From Clostridia bacterium (GTDB taxonomy: Bacteria; Bacillota; Clostridia; Christensenellales; Borkfalkiaceae): a DNA stretch of 64,000 nt. The notes below the pieces were generated by a model. The model was given only the letters and a program-made list of their open reading frames with translations. It did no database searches and had not been told where the DNA came from. Below, in pieces: positions 16,054 through 37,196 of this stretch. Within the stretch, counting starts at the first letter, position 1. Each line of letters begins with the position of its first letter. Location of the stretch: NCBI GenBank assembly GCA_029066845.1, contig JAIEFR010000012.1:1-64000 (forward strand), given 5' to 3'. The translations under genes were made by a program, and so were the position numbers.

Positions 16054-16305
16054 TTATGATACCCATATCCAGGCGATACAAGCCATTATAGCAAACACCA
16101 GAATAACTATTACAAAGACGGGCGCGTAGGCGGCGAACGCAGCGCGGACAAGCTGCCAGTATTCCTTGCGGGTGAGCTTTTGCTTTTGCGGGCGCGTGCC
16201 GTTGTTCTTTTTTGCCTGGGGATTGTACCACCTGAACCCTTCCACGTTCATATCCGCGAAAGTAGTTTCAGTATCCAGGTCGTCCCTTTTTTTATTCTTT
16301 TTCAA
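16054..16305 (-). CDS. Small single-pass membrane protein at the end of the Opp operon
   Basis: The 83-residue protein has a charged N-terminal half (about residues 1-55, Lys/Arg-rich) and one hydrophobic C-terminal helix (about 57-80) ending in WIWVS. I do not recognise the family. The start chosen is TTG at 16305, eight bases after AGAGGA and overlapping the last 14 bases of oppF; an internal ATG 19 codons downstream is the alternative. The overlap copies the oppD-oppF junction, which also overlaps by 14 bases, suggesting translational coupling and a role with the importer. Reading further upstream in frame would only run antiparallel to no known domain, so the longer version was not used. 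Confidence 0.6.
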   Translation of the reverse strand: MKKNKKRDDLDTETTFADMNVEGFRWYNPQAKKNNGTRPQKQKLTRKEYWQLVRAAFAAYAPVFVIVILVFAIMACIAWIWVS

Positions 16306-17533
16306 CGTTATTGTCCTCTGTTTGTGCGGGCTGTTCCTCGGCTTCGGACTTTTTAAACTTGTTTTTAACTTTTGCAACGACGTTTTTGAACGCGTTTGTA
16401 ACCTTGGCTTTCGCCTTGTTCAGGGGCTTGTTCGCTTCCTTTTCGGCGGCGATAGCCTCGTTGCGCTCGTTCTCTTCCGCCTGCGCAAGCAGTCTTGCGG
16501 TGTCCTCCGCGCTGTTGTAGAGGTGGCACGAACAGAAGTGACCTTCCTCCACCTCCCTGTATTCGGGAGCGATGCGCGAACAGATTTCCATACAGTGCTC
16601 GCAACGGGTGTGGAATTTGCAGCCCTTGGGAGGATTAACGGGCGAGGGAATGTCGCCTTTAAGCATAATCCTGTTCATCTTTACGTGCGGGTTGGGCACG
16701 GGCACTGCCGAGAACAACGCCTTTGTGTAGGGGTGCAGAGTGTTGCTGAACACGCTCTCCTTACTGCCGTACTCCACGATATTGCCCAGGTACATTACGC
16801 CGACGTCGTCCGATATGTGCTTGACAACCGACAGGTCGTGCGAAATGAAAATGTAGGTGAGCCCGAGCTTTTCCCTCAGCTCTATGAGCATATTTATGAC
16901 CTGCGCCTGAATGGAAACGTCCAGCGCGGAAACGGGCTCATCGCATATAACAAGCTTGGGTTGAAGCGCAAGCGCGCGCGCAATACATATACGCTGGCGC
17001 TGACCGCCCGAGAATTCGTGAGGGTATCTCTCGAAATAGTGGGGCTGTAAGCCGCACATATCCATTACTTTAAGCACGTAATCGTGGAAGCCCGCCTTGT
17101 CCACAAGGTGGTGCTGACGCGCCGATTCGCCTATGATTTCGCCGACCGTAAGGCGGGGCGACAGACTGGCGTAGGGATCCTGGAATATCATCTGCATATT
17201 GGGACGGAGCTTGTCAAACTCGCTGTTTTTAAGCTTTGCCACGTCCTGACCATCAAACAATATCTCGCCCTGCACGCCGTCGTAGAGGCGCAGAAGCGAA
17301 CGGCCCATCGTCGATTTGCCGCAGCCCGATTCGCCGACTATGCCCAGCGTTTTGCCCTTTTTAAGCGTAAACGATATGCCGTCCACCGCCTTCAGAAACT
17401 TTATCGGTTTGCCGAAAAAGTTCCTTTCGACGGGGAAGTATTTCTTTAAGTCGTTGACTTGCAGAAGAACGTCGTCGGGCATCTGAACGGTTGCGGCGGG
17501 TTCAAGCACTTCGCCGTTTTCAGTCTTTTCCAT
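16292..17533 (-). CDS. oppF: Oligopeptide ABC importer ATP-binding subunit OppF
   Basis: This is the second ATPase of the oligopeptide importer, working as a dimer with OppD on the inner face. All nucleotide-binding motifs are intact: Walker [11 protein letters not shown]-loop QDPYASLSPR, signature FSGGQRQR, Walker B VICDEP, and the H-loop ISHDLSVV. The C-terminal oligopeptide-transporter domain has four cysteines (CKFHTRCEHCMEIC), which in related ATPases bind an iron-sulfur cluster. At 413 residues it is about 80 longer than usual because of a Lys/Glu-rich tail after that domain. It overlaps oppD by 14 bases. Confidence 0.96.
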   Translation of the reverse strand: MEKTENGEVLEPAATVQMPDDVLLQVNDLKKYFPVERNFFGKPIKFLKAVDGISFTLKKGKTLGIVGESGCGKSTMGRSLLRLYDGVQGEILFDGQDVAKLKNSEFDKLRPNMQMIFQDPYASLSPRLTVGEIIGESARQHHLVDKAGFHDYVLKVMDMCGLQPHYFERYPHEFSGGQRQRICIARALALQPKLVICDEPVSALDVSIQAQVINMLIELREKLGLTYIFISHDLSVVKHISDDVGVMYLGNIVEYGSKESVFSNTLHPYTKALFSAVPVPNPHVKMNRIMLKGDIPSPVNPPKGCKFHTRCEHCMEICSRIAPEYREVEEGHFCSCHLYNSAEDTARLLAQAEENERNEAIAAEKEANKPLNKAKAKVTNAFKNVVAKVKNKFKKSEAEEQPAQTEDNNVEKE

Positions 17534-18821
17534 TGCCGTCCTCCTTTGCGTCCTCGTACAGATAGCACGCCACTTTGTGTGTGGGCGAAACCTGAACGTA
17601 TTCGGGATATGCGCCCGCGCACTTTTCCTTGCACATTTCGCACCTGTCGCGGAAATAGCAGTAATCGGGCATATTTATGGGGTTGGGTACGAAGCCGGGT
17701 ATGCAATACAGCTTGTCAACCTCGCCGTCAACCGTGGGTTTACTCTTTTGCAGACCTATTGTGTAGGGGTGCATAGGGTGGTCGAAAATGTCTTCCGCCG
17801 TACCCATCTCTATCACTCTGCCCGCGTACATTACCACGACGTAGTCAGCCATTTCGGCAACGACGCCGAGGTCGTGCGTGATAAGCATTATGGAGCCGTT
17901 TATCTTGTGCTTGATTTCCCTCAACAGGTCGAGTATCTGCGCCTGAATGGTAACGTCCAGCGCCGTCGTGGGCTCGTCCGCGATTATAAGCTTGGGGTTA
18001 CACAACAGCGCAATTGCTATCATAACCCTCTGGCGCATACCGCCCGACAGCTCGTGCGGGTATTTCTTGTAGACGCCTTCGGGGTCGGCTATGCCTACCA
18101 TTTTAAGCATCTCTATGCTGTGCGCCTTAACCTGCTTTTTGGAGATGCCCTCTATGTGCAGGTAGCCCACCTCGTCAAGCTGGTTGCCGATTGTGAACAC
18201 GGGGTTTAAGGAGGTCATAGGCTCCTGGAAAATCATTGCGATTTCCCTGCCGCGGATAGAGCGCATTGCCTCGGTAGGCATTTTGGCTATATCGACTACC
18301 CTGTCCTCCATCTCATAGACGTTGCCGCCCAGCTCGTTTTTCTTTATTATCTTTTTGCCCTTTTCGTCCAGCTTCACGCGCTCGACGCCGTCCACAATTT
18401 CGGTTTCGTAGACGGGGATTTTTCTGCCCTTATCGTCGCGCTTGAAAAGACTTGCCTTAAATCTTATGGAGCCGCTGACAATCTGACCGCTGGGCGCCTG
18501 AACGAGCTGCATCAATGAAAGCGAGGTTACGCTTTTGCCGCAGCCCGATTCGCCTACGACGCCGACGGTTGAGCCTGCCGGTATGGAGAACGACACGCCG
18601 TTGACCGCCTTGACCGTGCCCGCGTCCGAGAAGAAGTACGTGTGCAGATCCTCGAACTCGATGATGTTGTTATCGTCCTTCATCTGCGTGGTATATTCGT
18701 CGGGCTTAGCCTTGCGCTTCTTCAGTTTTTCAAAACGGCGTATCGCCTTGGAATTTTCCTTGGCGATTGCGCGCGATTCCGAGCGGGATATGTAGTGTTT
18801 GTTATCCTTGTTAGCCGCCAT
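17520..18821 (-). CDS. oppD: Oligopeptide ABC importer ATP-binding subunit OppD
   Basis: The 433-residue ATPase subunit has Walker A GESGCGKS (about 90-97), Q199 in [11 protein letters not shown], signature LSGGMRQR, Walker B LIIADEP and the H-loop ITHDLGVV. The C-terminal Cys motif ([14 protein letters not shown]) is present. Two additions are unusual: a basic N-terminal extension of about 48 residues and an insertion of about 50 residues between Walker A and the Q-loop (about 122-172, charged, KRDD to MEDR), where typical OppD has a short hairpin. It is two bases downstream of oppC, with the GAGG ribosome site inside the oppC end. Function is otherwise standard. Confidence 0.95.
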
Positions 18822-18823
18822 AG

Positions 18824-19918
18824 TTACCTCTTCATTTTAGGGTCGAAAGCGTCGCGTAATCCGTCTCCGACGAAGTTGAAAGCCAATATTGCAAGCGTTA
18901 TGCACACGCCCGCGCCCACCCAAAGGTTGGGGAAGTACGTTCTGTTGGTACTGTCTACTACGGCGTATATCATATTGCCCCAGGTAGCCGCACTTAAAGG
19001 CGCGCCCAAACCGAGGAAGCCGAGAGTTGCCTCGGTAAGTATTATGCTGCCCAGTCCCAAAGTCATAGAAACTATAAGCTGGGGAATGACGTTAGGCATA
19101 AGGTGCTTGAAAATCTTTGAGAAAGTAGAAAGTCCCGAAGCCTTTGCGGCAAGCATAAACTCCTGCTCTCGCAGTGACAATATCTGCCCTCGGACAAGCC
19201 TTGCCGTACCGACCCATCCTATTAAACATAGAATGAGCATCATCAGGTACAGCTTTATGATACTGTCGCCGAACGCGCTGAATACTACCGATAGTATCAG
19301 CATTATCGGCAACGTCGGAATACAGCTCAGAATATCGACCAGTCGCATTATGATGTTATCGACCCACTTGCCGAAATATCCCGCAAGTCCGCCCATAACC
19401 ACGCCTATCAGCGTTTCTATTATAACGACGACGAAGCCTATCGTAAGCGAAACTCTTCCGCCGTACATAAGACGGGTTAAAACATCGTAGCCCTCTTTGG
19501 TGGTGCCCATCCAGTGGGAAGCGCTTATGCCGCCTTCGATAACCTTATCGGGCATAGTGTAAGAGTAAATCAACGCTTCGTAATCGACGCCGTCCACAGT
19601 GTATTTTATAGGCTCTGCCGCGTCCGAAGGAATTATAAGCTGGGGGTTGGAGTCGGTCGCTCTGCCCTCGTTGGCTTTCCAGGGAGAAAACAGCGGACCG
19701 ATAAACGAAAACAGGAACAGTACTATTATCGTAACAAGTCCTATAACCGACAGCTTGGAGCGGAAGAAACGCTTCAATACCGTCATACCCGGGGACAGTA
19801 CCTTTACGTTGTCGCTAAGATTTTTTCCGTGAAGCTCGTCCTCGGCAACCTCGGCGTTTTCAACCGCGGGCGCCGCAACCTCTTCCTCAGTTACGGAATT
19901 TTCCTTTATCTCATTCAT
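18824..19918 (-). CDS. oppC: Oligopeptide ABC importer permease OppC
   Basis: The 364-residue permease has a long, acidic, cytoplasmic N-terminal extension (about 45 residues) before the first helix (about 60-85), then an exported loop of about 85 residues, then five helices containing the binding-protein-dependent transport signature around EATLGFLGLG. It forms the channel with OppB. The ATG has AAGGAG seven bases upstream. It lies 12 bases after oppB. Identity is clear; the extra N-terminal tail is longer than average. Confidence 0.95.
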   Translation of the reverse strand: MNEIKENSVTEEEVAAPAVENAEVAEDELHGKNLSDNVKVLSPGMTVLKRFFRSKLSVIGLVTIIVLFLFSFIGPLFSPWKANEGRATDSNPQLIIPSDAAEPIKYTVDGVDYEALIYSYTMPDKVIEGGISASHWMGTTKEGYDVLTRLMYGGRVSLTIGFVVVIIETLIGVVMGGLAGYFGKWVDNIIMRLVDILSCIPTLPIMLILSVVFSAFGDSIIKLYLMMLILCLIGWVGTARLVRGQILSLREQEFMLAAKASGLSTFSKIFKHLMPNVIPQLIVSMTLGLGSIILTEATLGFLGLGAPLSAATWGNMIYAVVDSTNRTYFPNLWVGAGVCITLAILAFNFVGDGLRDAFDPKMKR

Positions 19919-19930
19919 AGTATTTCTCCT

Positions 19931-20902
19931 TTAACCGGTCAGCTTGACGCGGGGGTCTACTACCGCATACATTATATCTGCGAAAAGCACGCCTATTACG
20001 GTGAGCACCGCAAGGAACATATTGTAGCCCATAGCAAGGAAAATGTCGCCGTTGCGCAGAGCGGCAAGGGCAATCTGTCCTATGCCGGGCAGAGCGAATA
20101 CTTCCTCGGTTATCATTGCGCCGCCGAACAATGTGGGAAGCGTGAACGACAACTGCGTTACAAGCGGAATCATTGTGTTGCGGAAAACGTGTTTGTATAT
20201 AACCTTGCCTTCGGAAAGTCCCTTTGCGCGCGCCGTGCGTATGTAGTCGGCGTTGAGCACTTCCAGCGTGTTCGTACGCGTATAGCGCATCAATCCGCCG
20301 ACGCTCAGGACGACCAGCACAACCATAGGAAGCACGAAGCCGCTTCCGTTACTACCGACGCCCTGCGTGGGGAACCAGCCTAAATCTACGGCAAACCATT
20401 TTATAAAAAGATTGCCGAGGAAGAAGGACGGGAAAGCTATACCCACCATACATAGCACTGTTGCGGTATAGTCCAGCTTGCCGTACTGGTTTACGGCGCA
20501 CTTGATGCCGATGGGAATGGCTATAACCATTTCCAGAAGAAGCGCGACGAAAGATATGCCGAAAGAAGTCCACATATACTGGCCGATAACCTTCTGCACA
20601 GGCATATTTGCGTGCTGGAAGGATATACCCATATCGCCTTTGAGGAAATTGCCGAACCACATAAAGTAGCCCTTTAAAATTCCCCCGAAGGAATCGTCAT
20701 CAAGTCCGTAGGGAGCCAAAATTAAGTGAAGTCCTTCATTTATCTCCTCTTCGCTGTAATTGGGATGCGCCGATACGTAGCTGTCCCTGATTGCGTTGCT
20801 CGGCGTAAGGCGCATAAGCACGTAAAGTATTACAGATACGCCGAACAGTATGAGCAACGCAAGCAGTATTCTCTTGATTATATATTTTAACGTTCCGTTC
20901 AT
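19931..20902 (-). CDS. oppB: Oligopeptide ABC importer permease OppB
   Basis: The 323-residue permease has six predicted helices and the typical N-terminus (IIKRILLALLILFGVS), the PSNAIRDSY loop and the family EAA-like signature around ITEEVFALPGIGQ. It pairs with OppC to form the membrane channel. The start follows CGGAT; it is 20 bases downstream of oppA. The length is normal. Confidence 0.95.
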   Translation of the reverse strand: MNGTLKYIIKRILLALLILFGVSVILYVLMRLTPSNAIRDSYVSAHPNYSEEEINEGLHLILAPYGLDDDSFGGILKGYFMWFGNFLKGDMGISFQHANMPVQKVIGQYMWTSFGISFVALLLEMVIAIPIGIKCAVNQYGKLDYTATVLCMVGIAFPSFFLGNLFIKWFAVDLGWFPTQGVGSNGSGFVLPMVVLVVLSVGGLMRYTRTNTLEVLNADYIRTARAKGLSEGKVIYKHVFRNTMIPLVTQLSFTLPTLFGGAMITEEVFALPGIGQIALAALRNGDIFLAMGYNMFLAVLTVIGVLFADIMYAVVDPRVKLTG

Positions 20903-20922
20903 AAAGTTATCCGAAAAAATTT

Positions 20923-23607
20923 TTACTTAACGAAATTTACCTTCCAGAGCTCGTCGATAGGTCCCATATTGTAGGAAGCCTTACCCAGTCCCTTGCCCTC
21001 TTCCATACCGTAGATTGTCTTACCGTCTATTACGCGCGAATTGTAAACGCAGAGGTTATTTCTCTGGTAGGTGGGGAACTCGACTGCGAGCTGCATTATA
21101 AGGTCGAGGCACTCGGCGTAAATTTCGGTACGCCTTTCCCTGCTGAGCGTAGCCCTGCCCTCGTCGATCTTGTCGCTGAGAGCGTTGACGATGGGAAGCT
21201 CCTTTGAGTATACGCCGTTTTCGTTTTTGATTATGCCGTCCTTATACCAGTTCTTGGTGCTGGACGCATTGGAGTTTTTGCTGTAAATCTGATAAGGGTC
21301 GGGGTCGATACTCGAAGACCAAGCCGCCGCCCATACAGCCAGCTTACCTGTTGCAAGGTCCTGAAGCGCGGTGACGCTGTTTACGACCGAAATATCCATA
21401 CCTGCCTGTTCGAGAACGATTTCCGCATCCTGGAACATTATATACGAGGGGTGGTCGGTGCTTTCGCCCGCAATGGTGAAGGTGAGCTTTAATACGCTGT
21501 TATCCTTGTTGCTGACCAGCTTCTTCCTTGCCGTATCGTAACGCCAGTTGCCTTCCTTGGTTATCATATTGCGGAGGTCGTCGCCGGTGTAAGCCGTTCC
21601 GTCCTCCTTGGTTCTCTTGTAGTAACGGTCGGCGTTATCGGGATATGCCCACGAAGTCATTGACATAGGTCTGTCGATGATGTTGACAAGTCTTGCGCCG
21701 AAATAGTCGGTTATCGAAGAGGTATCGAACGCGTGCATTATTGCCTGCCTAACCTCCATATCGGGAACGAAACGGGGGTTGATGCCTACGTAACCGTAGC
21801 CGCCCGCCTGGTAGGTAATCTGTTCGAGTCTTCCTTCCCCTCTCTCTCTGAGAGTGTTCTGGTTGGACGCCGTTGCGTTGGGCTCGCCGTAGTCGATTTC
21901 CTTTGCGATAAGCGATTCGACGATTTTGTCGTCGCGCGTTACTCTGTACTTAACGCGGTTAATCTTTGCGTTATCGATGTTCCCACCCATAGTGTGGAAC
22001 ATATCGTTTCTGATAAAGTATGCGGTGTAGTTGTCGAAGAAAGTACCGGAATCGAGGTTCTTCTCGTCATAGCTCTTGGTGCTGCACTTATATGCGCCTG
22101 CGCCTACGGGCAGACCGGTCTTTGCGTCGTTGCCGAGTACGTTGTTGAACCACTTTATATCCCTGAACTCAACGCCGAAGTGGGTTGCCGTTCCGTCGTA
22201 CACCTTACCGTCCGTATAATCCTTCATAGCGGCGTTATAGTGCGCTTCGTCGGAATAGTAGTACATAGGCGTAACGCTAAAGCCGAAGTTCCACTTAGCC
22301 TTGGGGTCGATACCGTTTACGGTAATCTTCAGAATATCGTGGTCCTCTTCGTACGTCTTGCCGTTGAACTGGTGGTTGGTGAACTTGGTGTTGCTTACGG
22401 ATATGCCGGAAATTCTGCTTACCGCCATATCCTGTCCCTTATTTTCCGCGGAAAGAGCTTCAAGGGTGAATGCGTCAACTACGTTGCTGTAGGTTGCCGT
22501 TGCGCCCAGAATATAAGCAATTCCGGTTTTGGTTGCGCGCGAATCGTAAACGTGCTTTACGGCGTACGCCTTCTGCAGAGCCTGCTGTGCGTCTTCCTTG
22601 GTGACGTCGGGGTGATCTGCCAGATACTCCTCAACCTTGGCGTCGGAGTAAGCGGCTTTCGTTTCGTCGATAAGCTGCTGATTGGCAACGTTGCCGTTTG
22701 CGTCGGGGTCGAGCGTGGTGAGATACTTGCCGTTCTCGTCCTTTGCGTTCTCGTAGCCGTAGGTGCCGGCAATCTGCTGGTTGGTAACCGCGCCTACCTG
22801 ATAGTAGAACGCTTCCCAGCCTTCGGTAAACCTGTACTCTTCCTCTTTATAGGCGTCTCTCCAACCCGTCTGAACGGAGTTCCAGGTGCTTTCAAGCTCT
22901 TCCTTATAGAGGTCGCATACGGTCTGATAATCCTCCTGCAACTGCGTCGTCTGGGAACCTATATCGCCGCTTCCTCTCGAAGACCAGTATATAAGCTCGT
23001 CTATACGGTTGAGCGCTTCGCCGTAGTATTTGGACATATCTACGGTGGTATCGTCGCCCGCGCCTACTTTCTGCTGTCTGTAAGCCTGCAAGCCGGCTAT
23101 CTTGGTGGAATAAATCGTGTTGGAGCCGTTATATACGGGGTCGAGATATACGTACAGGTTGAACAGTACGTCCATAACCGTCAGATCGTGTTTGCCGTCG
23201 GAGAACTTCATTCCGTTCTTAATGAGGAATTCGTATTCCGTCGTCTTTGCCGTGTTCAGCTCGTCGGGAACATCTTTTCCCTTGCCGTCGTAAGTACCCA
23301 GCACCTGACTGCCGTTCTTGTATGTTTCGAGATAGTCAAGCGTTACGGTGGGGAAATCGTCACCGTACGCAAGGTTGCCGCCCGCGTCTGCGGTGAGCAT
23401 AGAAACCTGCGTCATATTGGCTATTACACCGTCGTTCTGCGAGGTGTAAAAGAGCGGGTTGAACTTCTGGTCCACCGAGCCGATTGCCAGGTTGAGCGAG
23501 TCGGTTTCGGGATTGCGGTGATCCGACTTGTTGGCGCAGCCAGTTGCGCCGATTGCAAGTATGCCGCACAGTCCCGCGCACATTAGTCCTTTAAATATTT
23601 TTTTCAC
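20923..23607 (-). CDS. oppA: Oligopeptide-binding lipoprotein OppA (solute-binding family 5), enlarged
   Basis: This extracellular receptor captures peptides and delivers them to OppBC. The signal peptide ends in IGATGC, so it is anchored through Cys 24. SBP family 5 features run from LNLAIGSVDQKFNPLFY through FSDGKHDLTVMDVLF and, late in the protein, WAAAWSSSIDPDPYQIY. At 894 residues it is about 300 longer than common OppA proteins. Most of the excess lies between about 155 and 400 and is predicted alpha-helical with many Glu, Tyr and Gln residues. The GTG start is well supported by AGGAGG six bases upstream. Coming first in the transporter block, and directly after a protease and a lipoprotein, it likely receives peptides produced at the surface. 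Confidence 0.94.
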   Translation of the reverse strand: MKKIFKGLMCAGLCGILAIGATGCANKSDHRNPETDSLNLAIGSVDQKFNPLFYTSQNDGVIANMTQVSMLTADAGGNLAYGDDFPTVTLDYLETYKNGSQVLGTYDGKGKDVPDELNTAKTTEYEFLIKNGMKFSDGKHDLTVMDVLFNLYVYLDPVYNGSNTIYSTKIAGLQAYRQQKVGAGDDTTVDMSKYYGEALNRIDELIYWSSRGSGDIGSQTTQLQEDYQTVCDLYKEELESTWNSVQTGWRDAYKEEEYRFTEGWEAFYYQVGAVTNQQIAGTYGYENAKDENGKYLTTLDPDANGNVANQQLIDETKAAYSDAKVEEYLADHPDVTKEDAQQALQKAYAVKHVYDSRATKTGIAYILGATATYSNVVDAFTLEALSAENKGQDMAVSRISGISVSNTKFTNHQFNGKTYEEDHDILKITVNGIDPKAKWNFGFSVTPMYYYSDEAHYNAAMKDYTDGKVYDGTATHFGVEFRDIKWFNNVLGNDAKTGLPVGAGAYKCSTKSYDEKNLDSGTFFDNYTAYFIRNDMFHTMGGNIDNAKINRVKYRVTRDDKIVESLIAKEIDYGEPNATASNQNTLRERGEGRLEQITYQAGGYGYVGINPRFVPDMEVRQAIMHAFDTSSITDYFGARLVNIIDRPMSMTSWAYPDNADRYYKRTKEDGTAYTGDDLRNMITKEGNWRYDTARKKLVSNKDNSVLKLTFTIAGESTDHPSYIMFQDAEIVLEQAGMDISVVNSVTALQDLATGKLAVWAAAWSSSIDPDPYQIYSKNSNASSTKNWYKDGIIKNENGVYSKELPIVNALSDKIDEGRATLSRERRTEIYAECLDLIMQLAVEFPTYQRNNLCVYNSRVIDGKTIYGMEEGKGLGKASYNMGPIDELWKVNFVK

Positions 23608-23643
23608 AATAGTCCTCCTTGAAATATGTGAGTATTTCTTATC

Positions 23644-28000: not shown

Positions 28001-31000
28001 ACCGGTAAATACGCTCGAGTCGAGAGTGATTACCTTGCAGTTGGAAAGGTCCACGGTAGTAAGCTTGTCACAGCCGCTGAACGCTCCGCGCTGAATCATA
28101 TTGAGCGACGAATCCGCAGGTTCTATTTTATCTTCGGATATAAAGCAAATCTTTTCAAGCGTTTTGCAGTTAAGGAACGCCCTCTCTGCAATGGTCGTAA
28201 CGCTCTTGGGAATGACGATAACCTGAACGTTTTCGTTATCCCTGAACGCCTCCTCGCCTATCGTGGTTATGCCGCGGTCGGCGGGAATATACAGAATATT
28301 CTTGCCCTCCGCATTTACTACGCGATTGCCGTCGGCGTCGCTTTCGCTGCCCCAGCCGCGGTATCTTGTAAGCGTATTGTTGGTTATATCGTAGGGGTCG
28401 CGTATCCTGAGCGTAACCGTCGCCGTGATTGAGCGGTTTTCCTCCGCCTGCGCCGTTATGGTTACGTTACGCGTCCTCTCACCCTCGTACTTAACGGTTA
28501 CCCTGCCGTTCTTATCAACCGTTGCAAGCTTTTCGTCCGAACTGCTCCAAACGAAATGCAGCTTGTTTACGGGATAATACCAGGGGTCGGACTGTATACT
28601 CAGCGTGAACTGCTGCGCGGGATTTACGCGCACGATGTCCGCGGCCTTTACGGGATAATCGTCCGAGTTTATCATAGTGCCGAACGACACGGTATCGGGC
28701 AGAGGAAGCTCTATTGCGCTGTCGGTGACAACGACGGTGAAGGTTCTGGAAACCTTACTGTCCTTGCCGTAAACGGTAAGCAGAGTCCTGCCGACGTTGA
28801 CGCCGAAGATTTCGCTGTTCTTAGATATTGCGTAATAGGGGTTGGATATATTCCAGTTGAAGTTGGAAACGTTTGCGTCGCCCGCGTTATCCACGCCCAG
28901 CTTAACCGTAGTATTTTTGGGAATTACTATTTCCGTATTCTCTGCAAGCTCCGCGCCGTCCTTGGTGACCTTGAAGTCTGCGGGGCAGACGTTGGTCTTG
29001 GTGTAGTCGGGGTTGATATAGTAGACGCTGTTGTTGAGCGCGTAGTCGTCAATCTCGACGAACAGTCTGCCCTTATAATCGTCGTATATATCCGTGATGT
29101 CAATCGAAACCGTGTTGGTCGAATTCTTTCTGGGATTGATTACGGGAACGATATATTCGGTAGCCAGCTTTATGGACTGCAAATCCGAATTCTCCACGTC
29201 GTCCGCCTTGTCGGAATAGCAAAGTATTACCGCCTGGGGATAGTGGTTATCGAATATGTCGAGGTCGAGATATACGTCCTGTATATCTTTGTTGGAGCCG
29301 TCCGCCTTTCTGTCTACAAACCTTATGCGGCTGTCCACAAGAATGGGAGCTTCGTAATCGACGTAGAACGTCATCGAGAAAACGTTGTCCTTATAAACGC
29401 CGTAGGTTTCGCCGTCCGCGTTTGTGAACGTACCGTTCTTATAGTCGTCGTAATCGAAATAGAACCTGAAATCCATACGGTACTTGCCGTTTGCCGCCAA
29501 GCCCATATCCTCGGTTTTGAGCTCCAGATTTACAAGCGAAGGAGAGCTGCTGCCGCCGCCTGCATACGCCTTGCCCGCACGGTATACCTCTTTGTTTTCG
29601 CTTATTATTTCGCCGGTGTCCTCGTTTGAAATGGTGTAGGTGACCACTTCGGCGTTGCGCAGAAGTCCTGCATACAGCGCCCTTATGCCGCCCGTTGTGA
29701 AATAATTTTCCGAATTGTTCGCGCCGTAATTTTCGTGGAAGTCACGGGATATTGCCACGTGCTCTTCCTCGGGATATATATACTCGGAGGTGTGTTCCTT
29801 TTCCTCGTCCTGCAAATAGGTGAACGAACCGAGGGGAACGCTGTACTTCTCGCCCGCATAATATCCGTAAGCCTGCGTAGCCCATACGCTGGGCTGCTTT
29901 CTCTCCTCCTCTTTAAGCGAGGAATCCTTTGCGTCCTCGGCAATCTCGAAGCAGGAGAAGTCCATCATAGGCGCGTCCTTCCAGTCGCCGTAGAAGCCCA
30001 TAAACGGAAGGGTTAAATCGCACTGTGCACTGTTCTGGCTGACGAGCTGCAGGAAGCCTTCAACGAACATTCCGTTTGTGAAGTTTTCGTCAAGGTATCT
30101 CATCTCCTGAGTGGTCAGCTTTAAGGTAACCTCTATCTTGCTGCTCTTGCCGCCCGCAACGGTAACTTCGCCGCCCTCGGCAACCGCTGCGCCGTCCACC
30201 TTCCACGTTGCGTCGTTGCCGAACAGGTGCGCCTTTTCCGCAACCGACTTGCCGTCCATACCGACCGATTCGGTCATAAATATGCTCTTGGTTTTAAAGG
30301 TCAACGGGCTTTCGCCGAAATTGTTTACGTAAAACGTAATCGAATACTCGCCCTTCTTTCCGGGGTCGTCCTTAAGCTCCGCCTTGGGTCTGCCGTCCTC
30401 GCACATTCTTTCGGGGTCGGACGTGTCGTCCGTATCCTTGGTGCTGAGGTATGCGTTCGTGCCGAACACGTTTTTCAGAGTTGCAAGACCTGCGCCCTGC
30501 TTACGGGGGGAATAGGGCAGACCGTCGGGGTCGTACACGGTGGTTGCCGTACTCATTATAATGTTGTTGGTCAGCTTTGTAAGGGCGATATAGTCGCCGT
30601 TCCAAAGCGATTGTTTTTCCGTTTTCAGCCAGCCCTTGAACAGCGCCGTAAAGCCCGCAAGGTTGGGACACGCCATCGAGGTACCGCTCATTTCATCGTA
30701 GCCGCCCGCAACCGCAGAGGTTATTTCACCGCCGTGCGAGGTTACGTCAGGCTTCAACTGCAAATCGGGGGAAGGTCCCCACGAGGAATAGTCGTTCATA
30801 AACGGACCGGCCGTCCAGTCCTTGTTCAGGGTTACGGTGCCGCCGTCCTTTACGTTGTGCGTCGCCGCCGAACCCGTAAGTCTTAAACCCGCTTCCTGCG
30901 AAACAGATATGGAAGGAATGGGATCTACAAGGTCGCCGAGCGACATCCTTATCATACCCGAAACGTTGTTGTAAACGATTACCGCGTCCGCGCCGTTTTC

Positions 31001-32683
31001 CTTTGCCGTCTGGATTTTATCCTTGAAGGGGCTGTTGCCGCGCCTTACTACCGCGATAACCTTTTCGCCGGGCTGTTTGTCCTTGAGTTTGTTTCTGATA
31101 GACTGGGTATAGTCGGTCGCTTCGCCGGTGCCCTGCACTACCACGTATTTGAACGTTCCGGTCTGTTGGTCGCCGAGCAATTCACCGATAAAGTCGTTCG
31201 CTTCGGAGAACTCGTCGCGCGATTCCTCGAAGTAGAACGCCGCCGCATCCGCCGTGCCCTGGTTGGCAACGATGTAAGGCGCACGCTGTCCGTTAATACT
31301 TGCCACGGACATCGAGCCCGTAAACGTCGAGGGCGAGCCTATCGTGCCGGAGTCGGGGTTGGAGGTCAGGTTTGTGCCGAACACGCTTCCGTAGCCTGCC
31401 GAAAACTCGTTGCTCGCCGCTACCATCATCGTTATACCCGATGACCTGAGAGTTTCGTAAATATCTCCCATCAGGCGTCCCTCCTCGTCCTCGTCGGAAA
31501 GACCGAGAGCCTTGGAGGAGAAGCCACCCGAAGTGCCGAGCGACATATTGACGACGTCTACGTTCAGCTTATAGCAGTCTTCGAGAGCGTCGATAATATC
31601 CACCGCTTCCGCACCGCCTATAGCGTCGTCTTCGAGATTGTCGGTGAACACCTTGCAGATGACCAGCTGCGCCTTGGGCGCAACGCCTCTGAATTTAAGG
31701 GTATTGCCGTCCTTGTCCTTTGCCGTTTCGCCGTGCTTGTCCGTATAGCTTTCCGCTGCGCCCGCAACTATGCCCGCAACGTGCGTGCCGTGCTGCGAAT
31801 AGGAAGGATATACGTTGGCGTCGCTGTCCGCATAGTCGTAAGCAAACGGAACCTTTTCGTTTATATACACGTCGTCCAGAGTGACGCCGCTGCGCTGAAC
31901 GGCTTTAAGCGTTGACGAGCCTTTATATGCCGTTCCGTTGCCGTCTATTTTGTCCTGTACGTAATCTTTGGTGAAAGATATTTTATCGTTATCTACGTTA
32001 GGCTTGAACGCCTCGTGGGTATAGTCAAGACCGGTATCCAGAATGGCAACCGTCATACCGCTGCCGTCAATGCCGTCCTCAACGTATTCAGAGGAGTTGT
32101 ATATGCCGTTTTCGTAAATGTTGCTGTAATTGGTCTGCGCGCCGCCCGCACCGCCTTCCGCGTCCTTGGGAACAGAATAGGTAGAGCCGACCGATACCGT
32201 GGAAACGCCGCCGATAGCCTTTATCGTCTTCAACTGCGAAAGCTTAACGTCGATTGCAACGGCGTTGATTATGGTGTCGTACGTGCTCCTGAGCTTGTAG
32301 CTTATGCCCTTCTTGTCAAGCGCGGAAAGAAAGCTTTTCTGCTCCTTTTCGATTCTTGCCGCAGCCGAACGCGAATCGCCCGCTTCCGCAAGCGACTTGC
32401 CTTTCAGCCTTACTATGACCGTACGGGTGAGGTTTTCCACCGATACGGAAGCGCCCGCATTTTCAACGACCTGCTTGGAAAAATTATCAATCTTGATTTG
32501 GGTAAGATCGACCTTTCCCTTCGCGTCGCCGAATTCCAGGCTGTACACCTTGGAATCCGCGCTGACCGTAGAACCGCCGCTTAAAGCGGTTACGGTGCCG
32601 GCAACGCACGTTGCGCCCATTACGGCAGTCAACGCTATACAAGCCGCTCTGTAACGGAATTTTTTAGCAAACTTAAAATTCAT
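25079..32683 (-). CDS. Giant subtilisin-like (S8) cell-surface protease with leucine-rich repeats
   Basis: The 2534-residue exported serine protease is of lactocepin/C5a-peptidase style. A signal peptide ends near residue 42 (STVSADS). About 75-175 form an I9-type propeptide. The catalytic domain has D216 (ILDTG), H298 (HGTHVAG), oxyanion N425 and S669 (GTSMACP). A PA domain is inserted at about 505-600. Beta-sandwich domains follow to about 1455, then a block of BspA-type leucine-rich repeats (about 1465-2175), a helical stretch, and a final Ig-like domain. A single helix (about 2441-2466) anchors the protein, leaving a 68-residue acidic tail inside. No LPXTG motif is present. It probably cuts proteins at the cell surface and feeds the co-transcribed Opp importer. 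Confidence 0.93.
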   Translation of the reverse strand: MNFKFAKKFRYRAACIALTAVMGATCVAGTVTALSGGSTVSADSKVYSLEFGDAKGKVDLTQIKIDNFSKQVVENAGASVSVENLTRTVIVRLKGKSLAEAGDSRSAAARIEKEQKSFLSALDKKGISYKLRSTYDTIINAVAIDVKLSQLKTIKAIGGVSTVSVGSTYSVPKDAEGGAGGAQTNYSNIYENGIYNSSEYVEDGIDGSGMTVAILDTGLDYTHEAFKPNVDNDKISFTKDYVQDKIDGNGTAYKGSSTLKAVQRSGVTLDDVYINEKVPFAYDYADSDANVYPSYSQHGTHVAGIVAGAAESYTDKHGETAKDKDGNTLKFRGVAPKAQLVICKVFTDNLEDDAIGGAEAVDIIDALEDCYKLNVDVVNMSLGTSGGFSSKALGLSDEDEEGRLMGDIYETLRSSGITMMVAASNEFSAGYGSVFGTNLTSNPDSGTIGSPSTFTGSMSVASINGQRAPYIVANQGTADAAAFYFEESRDEFSEANDFIGELLGDQQTGTFKYVVVQGTGEATDYTQSIRNKLKDKQPGEKVIAVVRRGNSPFKDKIQTAKENGADAVIVYNNVSGMIRMSLGDLVDPIPSISVSQEAGLRLTGSAATHNVKDGGTVTLNKDWTAGPFMNDYSSWGPSPDLQLKPDVTSHGGEITSAVAGGYDEMSGTSMACPNLAGFTALFKGWLKTEKQSLWNGDYIALTKLTNNIIMSTATTVYDPDGLPYSPRKQGAGLATLKNVFGTNAYLSTKDTDDTSDPERMCEDGRPKAELKDDPGKKGEYSITFYVNNFGESPLTFKTKSIFMTESVGMDGKSVAEKAHLFGNDATWKVDGAAVAEGGEVTVAGGKSSKIEVTLKLTTQEMRYLDENFTNGMFVEGFLQLVSQNSAQCDLTLPFMGFYGDWKDAPMMDFSCFEIAEDAKDSSLKEEERKQPSVWATQAYGYYAGEKYSVPLGSFTYLQDEEKEHTSEYIYPEEEHVAISRDFHENYGANNSENYFTTGGIRALYAGLLRNAEVVTYTISNEDTGEIISENKEVYRAGKAYAGGGSSSPSLVNLELKTEDMGLAANGKYRMDFRFYFDYDDYKNGTFTNADGETYGVYKDNVFSMTFYVDYEAPILVDSRIRFVDRKADGSNKDIQDVYLDLDIFDNHYPQAVILCYSDKADDVENSDLQSIKLATEYIVPVINPRKNSTNTVSIDITDIYDDYKGRLFVEIDDYALNNSVYYINPDYTKTNVCPADFKVTKDGAELAENTEIVIPKNTTVKLGVDNAGDANVSNFNWNISNPYYAISKNSEIFGVNVGRTLLTVYGKDSKVSRTFTVVVTDSAIELPLPDTVSFGTMINSDDYPVKAADIVRVNPAQQFTLSIQSDPWYYPVNKLHFVWSSSDEKLATVDKNGRVTVKYEGERTRNVTITAQAEENRSITATVTLRIRDPYDITNNTLTRYRGWGSESDADGNRVVNAEGKNILYIPADRGITTIGEEAFRDNENVQVIVIPKSVTTIAERAFLNCKTLEKICFISEDKIEPADSSLNMIQRGAFSGCDKLTTVDLSNCKVITLDSSVFTGCPSLKNIVKWGAIGTAGTGTFAGCTALETADLSGLYMVGSGVFAGCTSLKDITIGNNTALGSAMFSGCTSLESVTVNCASVPAYAFSGCTSLKEVTFTAKNTVIGMGAFENCALETATVDANASLSTIGHYAFRGCRRLETFENLGTPEIGYGAFDGVTSMNGRLIAEDGTLYYAPLTVTAATLSGVTAIAPNALSGRTLDGLTELDLSNIQSIGNGAFRGLKGLTSVILPQNLTEIPANAFNGCTDLTQITIPAGVTKIGDGAFYGCTSLATVTYDGTAVKEIGVSAFENTAITELDLPASVKVLGDEAFARNTKLTRVNLPSVEDMGTAVFAFCPLLDTAVFGEDSTTTGTYTFTTRRFDEKGNEIERTASALTNVTLCDNIKEIGAGAFAYAPIVTIDLKKADSIGDQAFFGCVELTTVTGIEKVKTFGSEAFAYSGKLSTLNLAAAETIGDSAFVSGYDYGDKITSVTFGDNLKTIGRSAFEYSGLTEVTIPASVTQIGVSAFGVSASLAQFKVDEGNGVYFADGGVLYRYIDKDAKIYELCAYPAGRTADREENLRAYTVIDGTVAIGEQAFYGVRGIRLQKVTLPYTLKLIGDAAFLASELTHYQFEGINAPVLLEGITERKITKGNYSANSFFYQNFNGYLADCAARYPGDTNENATNKSTLTILYPSNGTGYTNFVYSNYFGTATLLSERMEDDTRRLIEIIDGLPAASEVGTWNSSNKTKPEIQNYSDLIKEAHGLYLALKTEVQRAFVGEERIEKFFAVEQAFIPVKNAFGIPRDISNISVAPESTHKSQYVVDEKFSLDGLKLLVTYDDYTTEVIDASEYFTIVERFDRPLRITDVTVNIIGSGKYAGFPVSIAITVTEGGAPVGGLPAYAIALIVVGGVLVLAAAAAVTLFILNKKGVITLKFLKRTKKDESVSGGESDTSAAESVNAADGEEVSENVNKDAEQSEGVSNDEKGGEEETDD
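26150..28290 (-). repeat. BspA-type leucine-rich repeat region within the protease gene
   Basis: The coding segment carries roughly 25 to 30 imperfect copies of a 21-25 residue unit with the pattern IGxxAFxxCxxLxxVxLP. These LRR_5 units are typical of BspA-like adhesins and give a curved binding surface. Repeats are divergent at DNA level, so no recent expansion is implied. Confidence 0.85.
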
Positions 32684-32706
32684 TTATCTGTACTCCTCTG
32701 CCATTC

Positions 32707-32722
32707 CCCGCAAGCCTGCGGG
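32707..32722 (-). other. Short hairpin between the modular lipoprotein and protease genes
   Basis: CCCGCA and TGCGGG (6-bp arms, 4-base loop) lie in the 46-base gap, and no T-run follows. It may be an RNA-processing or stability hairpin that sets different levels for the two genes; it does not look like a terminator. AGGAG lies nine bases before the protease ATG. Confidence 0.4.
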
Positions 32723-32729
32723 AAAGCGC

Positions 32730-35700
32730 TCAGTCTCCCGATTCGGTAAAAGTAAAGGGAAGTTTCAAGCAGTAATATACGCCCTCTTTTCTCAATTCCG
32801 CCTCGCACATAAGACCTGTTTCCTTATGAGTGAGTTTTACCTTGTAAACGGAAATCACTTCGTAATCGTAAGCTTTTTCGTAGCCGCCGTCAACTTCCTT
32901 CCAAAGGGTTGAACGTCCGTCGAAATAGAACCACTCTCTCGTGCCGTCTTTGTACTCGACAAACGCTCTCTGTCCGTAGAGATGGTCGGGAACGACAATC
33001 TTATAGGTTTTGCCGTCCTTGGTGAAGCCGCTTTCGCCGTCCCCCGCAGGCATAAAGAGCATACCGTTGCTACCACCGATGATATTTAGGATGCCCTGTT
33101 TGTCTATCTTGTAGCTGTACGCAACTTTCACGTTGCCGTCGGTGTAGGTTGCGGTACCACCGCTGCCGTACGCACATTCTCCCAAGCCGTCGAACATCCA
33201 AGAAGTGCCGTCCTCCGCGGTATACGTGCCGCGCCATACGTCCTCCCTGCCTACGGTCAGACCGCTCAGCGCCGTTGCGCTGCCGTCGCCGCTGCGGCTT
33301 ATACTGATTTCGTATACGCTCTTTTCACCCGCAAGGCTTATAGTCGTTGTAACTCTTACGCCGCTTACCGACTCAACGTAGGTGAGCGTTCCCGCCGAGG
33401 GATTATAGGTGAACGCGTATTCGCCGCTAGCCGCCGAATAGCTTACCTTTGCCGTGAAGTCGTTACTTACTTCGGCGATAGTCAGCGTTTCCAGCGTGCC
33501 GGAAACGTACCACTCGCCAGCCAAACCCGTGCTGAAGTGAAGGACGGTTCCGTTCCAGTCAAAGCCAGTTCCGCTTGCCTGGGGAGCGAGCACCTCGCCG
33601 TCCAGCGTAACGGTGCCGTCAACCACGGTGTACGGCAGAGTATTTCCGTCGGAAACAGTTACCGTTCCGCCGATATATCCCTTGCCGTCGAACTTGTAGG
33701 TCTTGTCGCCGTCCGTGAGTACCGCGTTGTACCAGTTGTCGCGCTGTCCCAGCTGAATGGTATCGCCGTCCAGAGTGAGCTCTACCTTGTTAGCCAGCTC
33801 GTCAAGCGAAAGAGTATAAGTCTTTTTCTCTCCGTTTACCGTAATGGTTACGATGCCCGAGTTGGCTCCCGTAAGGGTATAAGTGCCCTTGCGCGTCTTG
33901 CCGTTTTTAAGCTTTAAAGTAACGTCCGCCGTTCCGTTGCTGCCGGTAGCCGTTCTGCCGTTAAAGGTAAGCGTGTCGATATCTTCTACGTTTGCCTGCC
34001 ACGTGCCTCTGAACGCGTCGTACTTGCTGAATTCCTGCGCTTCTTCGTAATAATCTCTGTCAGCCGCGGAATATATAAGACCGGTTATCTTGCCCTGTAC
34101 ATAGGTGAGCTCGCCGTATACGTTGTCCTCTTCGAACAGTCTGAGCGTCAAACTGTTGCCCTTGCGGAACACGTCGTACTGCACGCTGAGGCTCAGATCC
34201 GCCGTACCCGAGTAGGATATTAACGCGTTGCCGTAGCCGTTACTTCCTATACCTTCCAGCGTGAGAATTATGAACTCATCCGATCCGGGCAGGAACCACG
34301 TTCCCGTAAAGTCGTCCGCCACGTAGTAACGTTCGTTGTTGATTACCAGTACGCCTTCCTCGTCGAACGAAGCCTTGTATAGCTTTTCGTTCCAGGTGAA
34401 CGCAACGCACTTGCCGTCGGGCTGATATTCAACCGTATCGGTAGTCTTACCGTCGGTGCAGGTAACCCGGTCTATTCCGTCGAACGTGAAGGACAGCAGA
34501 GAGTTCGAAGTCTTTCTCCATTTGCCGGAGTATGCGTCCCTGTGCGAAACCGTAACGCCGTCGATGGAAGTAATTAAGCCGTTCGCCACAACCGCATTCA
34601 GCTTGCCGCTGCCTTCGGTTATCGTAAGCGAGTCGCCGTCTATCACGTAGCTGAACGAATACGTTCTGCCGTTTTCCACGTGGGTGCCCGTACCGTTCTT
34701 TTCGAACGTGTAATTATCGCCGTCCGTGTCGAGGTATTCGCCGTATTTGAACTGCGTATCCTCCTTGACCGCGGAGAATTGCAGAATGCTTGTGGTGTAC
34801 GTGGGCTGGTTGTTGCTTGTGCCGATAACCGTAACCTTGCCCTGAATGTTAAGCTTGCTGCCGTCCACCGTGCCTTCGTACACGTGATAGTAGCCGCCCG
34901 TTGCGCCCGCGTCGTATTCGAGCAGCGCAAGCGCCGATTCCAGAAGCACTATCTTTGTGCCGTCATAGGTATACGTGCCGCCGCGGTGCATACCGCCGTT
35001 TCTCACCATATACGTGCCGTCGGCAAACAGCTCCACGTATGCGGAAGCCGAGCGCGCGGCGGGCAACAGATAGTACCTGCCCGCAACCTGCGTATAATCG
35101 GCAAAGCCCGCATAAAGCGTTATATCGTGCGCGGGAACGAAGCCCTGCGGCACGGGATTTTTAAGTTCTTTATCGAAATAATAGCCCCAGCTACGCGTGT
35201 TGCCCGAAGTGATATATCTGGGAAGCAGCTCGCCCGCGTCGTACCAGAAGTATACGGGGGTTGCCGCGCCGACCTTTCTGGTTGCCGTGTGAACGGTGTT
35301 CGTGCCGTCCGAAACGGTTATGGTTATATCGCGCCTGTCCGCGTCCGCCAGAGGCAACGCCTTGGGCTGAGGCAGTGCGCCTCCGAACGTCCACTCCTTT
35401 TCAACCCAGCCGAGAGAGGTAAACGCGGTCTGCGCGCCGCTGTTCGCTCCGCTTGAATTGGTGCCGTCCATCACGATAACGCTCTGCGTGCCCGTCATAG
35501 TAGAGCCCGCCGCTTCGCAGTGTCCGTAGAACGTGCCCGTCTTTTTGTTTATATTTCCGTGGGGGCTTTCGGCGTTGAGGTAGGTGTTAGCCGCATAACA
35601 GCCGCGTATAACCGTATCCTCCTCCGCATAGCCGACTATACCGCCCGCATACGCGCCCCTGTAAGCTTCGTCGATAAGCGCGATGTCAATGGAGTTGTTT

Positions 35701-37196
35701 GCGTTTACGCCCGAGGACGAATAGCAGTTGGTAACCGAGCAGTACATACCCAGCGTACCTACGATGCCGCCTGCGTGCATTGCGCCCGAAACGTCGGCTG
35801 TGGAAGTACAGTTGAGAACGTACGCCGCCGAAACGAGGTTGCCGACGATGCCGCCCGCCGAACGGGGCGAGCCGTTGCCGTCCAGGTATACGTTGGAGGT
35901 GCTTGCGCGGACGAAGGAGTCGAACATCATAGTCGTAACGCCGTCGTTATAATAGCCCGCCTGCAGTCTGCCCGCAATGCCGCCCAGAATCATAATCTGG
36001 TTGTTGTCGTTTATCGCAATCAGCTTGCCGTCCGCGTGGCAGTTGGAAACCTCCACGCCCACGCCGTAGCCGAGGACGGAGCCTGCGAGGGTTATCTGCT
36101 CCTCGGAGCCTGCGTGCACGCGCACCTCGTAGTTTTCGAGAGTTAAATTTTTAATTTCCGCCGAGCCGTAGCCCAAATCCGCATAGCCGTAGCCGAACAG
36201 TCCGACGTAGGGCAGATAAGCGGATTCGAAGGACGACTGGTTCACAACCTCGTCGGTAATGTAGAAGTTGCTTATGGTCTTGCCGTTGCCGTCGAAGTGT
36301 CCGCGGAACATTGCGGTTTCGTTGGAATAATCGCCGACGACGAATACCTGCTCGCCCTCCAGATCGATATCCTTTTCCAGCTTGTAGTAGCAGTTGTCGA
36401 ATTGGGTATAGAGCTCGTCGTTGACGATATATGCAAGATAGAAGAGGTCTACGGGGCGGGAAAGAAGGTAAGGGTCGCTCTCGGTACCGCTTCCGCAGTT
36501 AGGTCTGCCAGTTATGAACGATTCCTCCATCGTAAGACCCGAAACGGAAACCGTGGTGTCCGCCTTTAAGTTTCCCACGGTGTAAACGCCGTTCGCGTCG
36601 GGTTCCAGAATTTCCGTATCGCAGCTGACCGTGTATTTCTGCACGTAATAGGGGCTTGCCTTGACCTTGAATTTGAAAGGCTTGCCGCTCTCCACCCTTA
36701 CCGTATCGTTCACGAGAACGTCGTTGCCGAATTCGTTGCCGTTTTCGTCGTAATAGTGTACCCAGATTTCGGAGCTTATGGTTTCACCGTCGCTGCCCTT
36801 CGTCTGCTCGAAACGCGAGAGAGTAAGATTATAAATACTGCCGAGGCCGGTTGCCTCCACCTTTGTGTCAGCCTTCATTATGAACGAGTAAACGCCGTTC
36901 TCGTCGGGCTCCAGGACTTCACCGTTGACTAAAATTACGGGAGTCCCCGTAGTGTTCGAGCCGAGGGAAAGCGTAAAGCGCACCTCGACGTCCTTTTTGA
37001 CGGTGCCGCCGCTGCGGAACGACTCGCTGTTTTCGTCAAGCTCGGCAAGCGCGCCCTGCAAAACGTAGTCCAGTCCGCTGCCCTCGAAGGTTAGCGTATA
37101 ATATTTGGGCTTGGAGCAAGCCGCCGCGCCGCCCGCAAGGCAGGAAATACCGCCCGCGATTACTAAACCCATAAGAATTTTTTTGAATTTATTCAT
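32730..37196 (-). CDS. Giant modular surface lipoprotein, first gene of the protease-Opp operon
   Basis: The 1488-residue lipoprotein (lipid Cys 27) starts with two beta domains that each close with a 'DENGVYSF/DANGVYTV' motif (about 30-230). A long right-handed helix region with GLUG-like motifs follows (about 240-620; repeated GGIVG and GHFDGNGKTISN), then one Listeria-Bacteroides-type segment (about 660-730). A large C-terminal array of short lipocalin-like beta units fills the rest (about 740-1480; repeated pattern GTWxxxxxxxxLTF...YTL). No catalytic residues are recognised; ligand binding or scaffolding is the best guess. The start at 37196 has GGAG seven bases upstream; a longer frame lacks a ribosome site. 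Confidence 0.8.
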   Translation of the reverse strand: MNKFKKILMGLVIAGGISCLAGGAAACSKPKYYTLTFEGSGLDYVLQGALAELDENSESFRSGGTVKKDVEVRFTLSLGSNTTGTPVILVNGEVLEPDENGVYSFIMKADTKVEATGLGSIYNLTLSRFEQTKGSDGETISSEIWVHYYDENGNEFGNDVLVNDTVRVESGKPFKFKVKASPYYVQKYTVSCDTEILEPDANGVYTVGNLKADTTVSVSGLTMEESFITGRPNCGSGTESDPYLLSRPVDLFYLAYIVNDELYTQFDNCYYKLEKDIDLEGEQVFVVGDYSNETAMFRGHFDGNGKTISNFYITDEVVNQSSFESAYLPYVGLFGYGYADLGYGSAEIKNLTLENYEVRVHAGSEEQITLAGSVLGYGVGVEVSNCHADGKLIAINDNNQIMILGGIAGRLQAGYYNDGVTTMMFDSFVRASTSNVYLDGNGSPRSAGGIVGNLVSAAYVLNCTSTADVSGAMHAGGIVGTLGMYCSVTNCYSSSGVNANNSIDIALIDEAYRGAYAGGIVGYAEEDTVIRGCYAANTYLNAESPHGNINKKTGTFYGHCEAAGSTMTGTQSVIVMDGTNSSGANSGAQTAFTSLGWVEKEWTFGGALPQPKALPLADADRRDITITVSDGTNTVHTATRKVGAATPVYFWYDAGELLPRYITSGNTRSWGYYFDKELKNPVPQGFVPAHDITLYAGFADYTQVAGRYYLLPAARSASAYVELFADGTYMVRNGGMHRGGTYTYDGTKIVLLESALALLEYDAGATGGYYHVYEGTVDGSKLNIQGKVTVIGTSNNQPTYTTSILQFSAVKEDTQFKYGEYLDTDGDNYTFEKNGTGTHVENGRTYSFSYVIDGDSLTITEGSGKLNAVVANGLITSIDGVTVSHRDAYSGKWRKTSNSLLSFTFDGIDRVTCTDGKTTDTVEYQPDGKCVAFTWNEKLYKASFDEEGVLVINNERYYVADDFTGTWFLPGSDEFIILTLEGIGSNGYGNALISYSGTADLSLSVQYDVFRKGNSLTLRLFEEDNVYGELTYVQGKITGLIYSAADRDYYEEAQEFSKYDAFRGTWQANVEDIDTLTFNGRTATGSNGTADVTLKLKNGKTRKGTYTLTGANSGIVTITVNGEKKTYTLSLDELANKVELTLDGDTIQLGQRDNWYNAVLTDGDKTYKFDGKGYIGGTVTVSDGNTLPYTVVDGTVTLDGEVLAPQASGTGFDWNGTVLHFSTGLAGEWYVSGTLETLTIAEVSNDFTAKVSYSAASGEYAFTYNPSAGTLTYVESVSGVRVTTTISLAGEKSVYEISISRSGDGSATALSGLTVGREDVWRGTYTAEDGTSWMFDGLGECAYGSGGTATYTDGNVKVAYSYKIDKQGILNIIGGSNGMLFMPAGDGESGFTKDGKTYKIVVPDHLYGQRAFVEYKDGTREWFYFDGRSTLWKEVDGGYEKAYDYEVISVYKVKLTHKETGLMCEAELRKEGVYYCLKLPFTFTESGD

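Follow-up and report, generated by a model that had tools for sequence, protein, structure and literature searches.

Can a single transcription unit encode the capture of protein at the cell surface, its cutting, and the uptake of the resulting peptides? The question is raised by a stretch of 64,000 nucleotides (the window; contig JAIEFR010000012.1, positions 1 to 64,000) from a Clostridia bacterium of the family Borkfalkiaceae, whose 1.56-Mb genome is rated 99.1% complete. Nine genes succeed one another on its minus strand, from 37196 to 16054: a lipoprotein (Lip1), a subtilisin-family (S8) protease, a second lipoprotein (Lip2), OppA, OppB, OppC, OppD, OppF and a small transmembrane (TM) protein. 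A first-pass annotation had described them as a single-strand operon in which no gap exceeds 46 bases and neighbouring genes overlap by 8 or 14 bases, and the open reading frames (ORFs) and spacings that we recomputed agree with it. From their content, order and conservation, we consider that these genes probably constitute a membrane-surface protein-utilisation operon, organised unlike lactocepin systems or Opp importers.

32730..37196, minus strand: Lip1, lipoprotein 1, 1488 aa (ATG start, lipobox in the translation)
25079..32683, minus strand: subtilisin-family protease, 2534 aa (Pfam Peptidase_S8, PA, fn3_5, LRR_5)
23644..25086, minus strand: Lip2, lipoprotein 2, 480 aa (lipobox; AlphaFold2 model; fold matches)
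20923..23607, minus strand: OppA, peptide-type binding lipoprotein, 894 aa (SBP_bac_5)
19931..20902, minus strand: OppB permease (BPD_transp_1)
18824..19918, minus strand: OppC permease (BPD_transp_1, OppC_N), containing an allele breakpoint relative to locus L107 (see below)
17520..18821, minus strand: OppD ATPase (ABC_tran, oligo_HPY)
16292..17533, minus strand: OppF ATPase (ABC_tran, oligo_HPY)
16054..16305, minus strand: small protein with one TM segment, 83 aa (TTG start)

The widest intergenic gap, of 46 bases, separates Lip1 from the protease gene, which overlaps Lip2 by 8 bases; Lip2 and OppA are 36 bases apart, OppA and OppB 20, OppB and OppC 12, and OppC and OppD 2, while OppD and OppF, and OppF and the small TM gene, overlap by 14 bases each. 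The ORF list offers TTG 37253 as an alternative start for Lip1. The following elements delimit the unit.

37381..37414, minus strand: strong intrinsic terminator-like hairpin (15-pair stem, 13 G-C, T tail), closing the upstream gene and separating it from the operon
37331..37355, no strand assigned: dyad TTTATGCA-N9-TGCATAAA, candidate operator (pattern match and alignment of genomes of the same genus)
37280..37302, minus strand: conserved AT-rich element TATAAGTAATTTTTATATAAAAT (alignment of the window and five genomes of the genus)
37227..37254, minus strand: promoter-like TTTGCA-16-GATAAT (9 of 12 matches; flanking bases kept in five genomes of the genus)
15881..15909, both strands: bidirectional terminator (12-pair stem, T tails on both strands), between the operon and a convergent gene

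This anatomy, with a promoter-like site at the head and terminator-like sites at the ends, would fit a single unit, and the stretch from Lip1 to the small TM gene is likely to be transcribed as one. The earlier statement that no internal terminator exists stands, the only minus-strand candidates within the unit being two weak sites in coding DNA (25045-25027 and 36951-36936).

The protease comprises, in order, an N-terminal hydrophobic signal, an S8 domain (PF00082, E 1.8e-38) with a PA insert (521-602), an fn3_5 or Fn3-like A domain (770-895), Big_2, LRR_5 leucine-rich repeats (LRR) resembling those of surface adhesins, and a C-terminal TM helix (2443-2461) followed by a charged tail. The catalytic triad D216/H298/S669 was intact in every row with letters at these positions of a 59-row alignment (53/53, 54/54 and 59/59), and this was the sole Peptidase_S8 protein detected in the genome (E 1e-10). 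Its catalytic region is homologous to that of lactococcal PrtP (lactocepin, PII-type), the best 20 of 152 plasmid records aligning with 91% of the query at 28.6-29.5% identity; among the matches listed, its closest plasmid-borne relatives are annotated as PrtP. By sequence, the closest solved structure is that of C5a peptidase (1xf1, E 6.3e-42), from which the operon protease differs in its C-terminal LRR and TM region and in its genomic company. It shares with lactocepin the Asp-His-Ser triad, the PA insert and the A domain, but it has a TM anchor where lactocepin carries a sortase LPXTG signal, a search of the protein for LP.T[GAS] yielding no match, and it additionally has the LRR region. 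Judged by its domains, the enzyme has a lactocepin-like catalytic region with another architecture around it.

The genetic setting also differs, in that the operon includes two lipoproteins and joins protease and importer in what is likely one unit. In the three Lactococcus plasmids opened, prtP always lay beside a divergent PrsA-type gene, in agreement with the prtM arrangement given in passages of PMC8037685, which also mention proteinases of lactic acid bacteria beside which prtM was not found. No peptidyl-prolyl isomerase family, as in the PrtM/PrsA maturation lipoprotein, was detected with Pfam among the operon proteins. Likewise, no opp annotation was present in the 27.8-32.3 kb prtP stretches of the three plasmids, whose PLSDB gene tables are incomplete, which bears out, to that extent, the contrast with lactic acid bacteria drawn in the first-pass annotation; a passage of PMC6458302 places opp together with lac on plasmids. 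Both arrangements would nevertheless follow the familiar logic, set out for PrtP in part of PMC8037685, of cutting at the surface and subsequent import by Opp, which for the operon is proposed here.

The importer is complete by domains, with an SBP_bac_5 receptor, two BPD permeases and two ATPases with oligo_HPY, indicating a true Opp set with predicted oligopeptide transport. OppA was the sole SBP_bac_5 (PF00496) protein found in the genome, and its best profile match was AppA (1xoc, E 8.4e-19). With importers of the OppA/AppA type (1xoc AppA; NCBIfam Opp4A) it shares the SBP_bac_5 core, but two traits set it apart from them: its two SBP_bac_5 stretches lie approximately 300 residues apart, against about 30 positions in the profile, and it has a constant lipoprotein neighbour.

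To what extent are the protease and the importer linked in other genomes? Our sample of relatives contained 150 genomes, 90 of the same genus (congeners; own genome included) and 60 others of the order. S8 matches were counted only when overlapping the catalytic domain, and two candidates per genome were scored rather than all matches listed, so that S8 absences are soft. In the genus, 70 genomes contained both S8 and OppA, one only S8 (G051), two only OppA and 17 neither (Fisher p 3.2e-15, uncorrected for relatedness); of the two with only OppA, G005 carries a fragment of S8 on its OppA contig, and G063 has its OppA close to a contig end. In the rest of the order, five genomes contained both genes, two only S8 and 53 neither. 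Conserved order in close relatives, on which the first-pass annotation had made its reading hinge, was found: 74 of the 80 OppA matches lay on the same contig and strand as S8, or as a piece of S8 at a contig end, and within 12 kb (71 within 10 kb, three at 10.8-12.0 kb), with the protease first in 68 cases and the importer first in six, whereas none of 104 SBP_bac_5 matches was within 12 kb of S8 in a control sample of 41 genomes of the class, minus the window's own genome. The remaining six OppA matches sit on contigs other than that of S8.

A second sample, here called the named loci, was obtained with an OppA profile search, taking the best 80 of at least 590 confirmed matches. These records are mostly metagenome-assembled genomes of Clostridia, many of them, to judge by their titles, from animal guts; the records' own labels are Clostridia, Oscillospiraceae, Erysipelotrichaceae, Bacilli and Acholeplasmatales, and L136, L146 and L148 are labelled Candidatus Scatosoma or Coproplasma. 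The S8 catalytic gene was present in 58 of the 80 loci, 45 with the protease first and 13 with the importer first, and the genes are tightly packed, with median gaps of 11 bases between S8 and Lip2 (37 cases, -113 to 765) and of 29 bases between Lip2 and OppA (51 cases, -8 to 162). On a quick OppA tree (59 rows) the gene order requires three changes, at least two of these being forced by well supported branches; importer-first rows formed two groups on the S8 tree, and, for the same rows, 41 of 56 splits were common to the S8 and OppA trees. As traced on these trees, adjacency has thus outlived at least two changes of gene order. Since the order is kept, adjacency outlived reordering and no control SBP_bac_5 gene lies as near S8, these data support a genuine linkage of the protease with the importer.

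The lipoproteins are differently attached. A Lip2-type lipoprotein ORF was found directly 5' of OppA in all 77 testable named loci, with its lipobox Cys26 invariant in 78/78 aligned rows, and it is constant beside the long-OppA family even where no protease is adjacent; on the evidence of gene neighbourhood, Lip2 belongs with the importer. The window's Lip2 matched no Pfam or NCBIfam model, and its AlphaFold2 model (mean pLDDT 94.4) and fold matches predict an InlB-B-repeat-like module, a second small beta module and a C-terminal beta-helix, the nearest known folds probably being the B-repeat of Internalin B and the beta-helix of M26 IgA1 protease. The first-pass claim that neither lipoprotein has a known counterpart in such pathways needs revision for Lip2, which is a constant neighbour of long OppA with modules like known folds. 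In other members of the class with long-OppA importers and no adjacent S8, a Lip2 homologue lay downstream rather than upstream in five of the seven loci fetched (e.g. L219:16376-17818). Lip1, for which Pfam gave GLUG marginally above and DUF5640 below the cut-off, had a match 5' of S8, on the same strand and 82-2219 bases away, in 20/20 protease-first congeners fetched. The small TM protein, with no match in Pfam or NCBIfam, has homologues after OppF in many relatives.

The head of the operon is also conserved in part. A block of approximately 150 bases 5' of Lip1, including the dyad, the AT-rich element and the promoter-like core, could be aligned between the window and five congeners, whose S8 proteins are just 52-58% identical to that of the window. 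The dyad pattern has a single match in the 1.56-Mb genome, with 0 expected in the window; it is exact in the window and G012, has one change in G042 and, by eye, has an aligned right arm (altered in G018) and a left arm elsewhere in G072, G028 and G018. TATAAT-type sites were seen by eye ahead of Lip1 in four more distant congeners. An Rfam scan of the window gave nothing at gathering scores, and control by CodY was rejected, as its box had three matches in the window versus 1.96 expected and none at the operon head. We also considered as first gene of the operon the one just 5' of it (37458-41120), for a lipoprotein of 1220 aa with a short collagen-like GPAGPAG stretch, but left it out because the terminator at 37414-37381 stands between. 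Half-sites TTTATGCA occur upstream of that gene (41159-41166 and 41243-41250), and seven are present in the window versus 1.8 expected.

Beyond the bidirectional terminator lie three further genes, the last two of which we refer to as the redox pair.

14537..15862, plus strand: serine dehydratase alpha-type enzyme (SDH_alpha, PF03313, E 1.1e-62), which we take to be possibly a cysteine desulfidase
13630..14514, minus strand: m13, five hydrophobic segments, ending in CTECIGLG (NF040920, CD1871A family, 42.7 bits versus a cut-off of 32)
11883..13628, minus strand: NapH-like membrane polyferredoxin fused to a thioredoxin-like domain with CDPC (Fer4_5, Fer4, Redoxin; motifs)

The polyferredoxin scored 69.4 bits against the curated NapH/MauN-type family, short of its cut-off of 213, and is only a relative of that family; we found no literature match on CD1871A. 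Of 72 congeners in which OppA was found, 56 also had the polyferredoxin-thioredoxin gene, versus one of the 18 others (p 1.8e-8, uncorrected); this gene is no more than 25 kb from OppA in 33 of 57, and together with m13 it directly follows the small TM gene in four of 10 mapped protease-first congeners (G061, G073, G017 and G024). In the named loci, m13 with a complete CTECIGLG-type end was downstream in 10 of 80 and divergently upstream in four (labelled Oscillospiraceae). The interval separating the redox pair from the SDH_alpha gene holds, at 14486-14566, a back-to-back pair of strong promoter-like sites with 11 and 12 of 12 matches, which suggests that these genes are controlled jointly. 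A gene at 8500-11364 encodes a lipoprotein of 954 aa whose thioredoxin-like domain (CGPC) is related to ResA, and it has homologues near the operon locus in G024, G079 and G088.

Comparison with the named locus L107 revealed two levels of synonymous divergence (dS): 0.28-0.39 for the SDH_alpha, m13, OppD and OppF genes and 0.55 for the polyferredoxin gene, versus 0.91-1.60 for S8 (641 aligned codons), Lip2, OppA, OppB and OppC. Fourfold sites placed one change point in oppC, near 19210 (range 18931-19543), with a likelihood ratio of 72.1 versus 19.2 for the largest of 1000 shuffles. From mid-oppC onward the DNA is 88-89% identical to L107, in two blocks between which L107 has about 0.8 kb with no match in the window, whereas before mid-oppC only fragments of 73-82% identity align. 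G023, an assembly with different contigs, contains an allele similar to that of L107 (92% over 3970 bases of Lip2-OppA), although the junction is not spanned; its polyferredoxin pieces vary, matching the window at 96% and at 67-70% identity. Recombination of a protease-Lip2-OppABC block would be the simplest reading, from one pair; a chimeric contig is a possible alternative. Of 17 pairs with an OppD dS of 0.9 or less, only the window and L107 are close enough for a sharp step, and none was seen in the L185-L186 pair.

Other genes of the window were noted as well. Pfam identified an asparaginase gene near the operon. Upstream, positions 43902-53528 contain a DUF4175-like/MoxR/DUF58/vWA/vWA cluster with lipoproteins, and MoxR-vWA-type genes stand beside the importer locus in four of the 80 named loci (L164, L167, L184 and L173); nevertheless, because it was upstream in just one of 20 congeners tested, we rejected the cluster as a general partner of the operon. 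Further on, 54428-56845 encodes a pectate lyase; its translation has a lipobox, and the protein also carries a CBM77 domain and a linker rich in proline and threonine.

How might the unit work? We propose that the lipoproteins and the LRR region would capture polypeptides at the membrane, where the protease would cut them; Lip2 would work with OppA as a co-receptor, dock or scaffold, and OppBCDF would import the resulting oligopeptides. As capture, cutting and uptake would all sit at the membrane, products would be handed over locally and not shed, and co-expression from one promoter would set the ratio of the components. In the weakest step of this scheme, the redox neighbour may send electrons outward, opening disulfides of the substrate or keeping thiols of the protease reduced. 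Glycan-utilisation loci also encode surface binding, degradation and uptake together. The analogy with them made in the first-pass annotation holds for this organisation, and no further, as Pfam detected no glycan enzyme or regulator gene among the proteins of the unit, and SusC/SusD were not seen either. No earlier description of the operon was found in the titles, abstract starts and some passages of the literature searched.

Several observations weigh against this reading. In the control, two SBP_bac_5 matches fell just past the 12-kb cut, one at 12.8 kb from S8 but on the opposite strand, the second at 13.7 kb. Among the named loci, 22 of 80 had no S8 catalytic gene, some being truncated and some fully flanked; 10 of these contain a same-strand ORF like the LRR part of S8, as expected for a protease cut by the edge, and some are too short to judge, yet others, e.g. 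L120, L123, L159 and L173, have full 10-kb flanks and no S8. On the favourable side, a genome-wide search for L115, L118-L123, L140, L159 and L173 detected an S8 of the operon family in 10/10 genomes. Across 391 genomes of the class, 15 had a match to the long OppA at E 1e-80 or below and 52 to S8 of this type at E 1e-40 or below, while five, all of the window's family, had both; 10 of the 15 long-OppA genomes thus show no S8 match and 47 of the 52 S8 genomes no long OppA, although the scoring of two candidates per genome makes absences of either gene soft and the co-occurrence figures rough. With so few genomes containing both, the coupling is a feature of particular lineages and a rule for neither gene; the link, as far as these genomes go, is lineage-bound. 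Finally, promoter-like consensus sites occur within coding DNA, including two in the protease gene (29103-29075 and 26878-26850), so that internal transcription starts are possible, and C5a peptidase, whose catalytic region is related, serves another purpose.

These internal sites would fit two overlapping units, with Lip1 and S8 transcribed from the head promoter and Lip2-OppABCDF and the small TM gene mainly from promoters in the protease gene, the importer being a general scavenger under loose co-regulation. The occurrence of Lip2-OppABCDF with no adjacent S8 in L120, L123 and some other loci points the same way, but the short median gaps leave little space for promoters between the genes and adjacency survived changes of order, which makes such an arrangement unlikely. 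The kinship with C5a peptidase and the adhesin-like LRR_5 repeats could instead indicate a surface processing or host-factor-cleaving enzyme, with an importer whose signalling or cleaved peptides would be sensed rather than used as food. We find this quite improbable, given that no SBP_bac_5 system other than this complete importer was found in the genome, that the catalytic region matches PrtP over most of its length as well, and that the nearby asparaginase and SDH_alpha enzyme fit amino-acid catabolism.

That there is no functional link at all, and that the neighbourhood was inherited by chance in one lineage, gains something from the preponderance of one genus (90 of 150 relatives) and the softness of S8 absences; it is hardly credible in view of the order changes through which adjacency was kept, the empty control and, even uncorrected for relatedness, the co-occurrence in the genus. 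Returning to a protein-utilisation operon, its boldest form would make it a class of its own, a Gram-positive protein-utilisation locus in which protease, capture lipoprotein and enlarged OppA are one surface machine passing peptides directly to OppBC, with an outward thiol-reducing module for disulfide-rich substrates and with an OppDF motor that stays constant while protease-Lip2-OppABC is exchanged as a cassette setting specificity; this we put forward only tentatively.

Together, our analyses of sequence confirm the gene arrangement, which is conserved in its lineages and has an interest beyond this one locus, with a mechanism that we infer. It provides a sequence-defined unit through which uncultured gut-type Clostridia may feed on protein, links a protease genetically to its importer and names Lip2 as the constant neighbour of OppA, with pointers to a possibly exchangeable protease-receptor block and to a redox neighbour.

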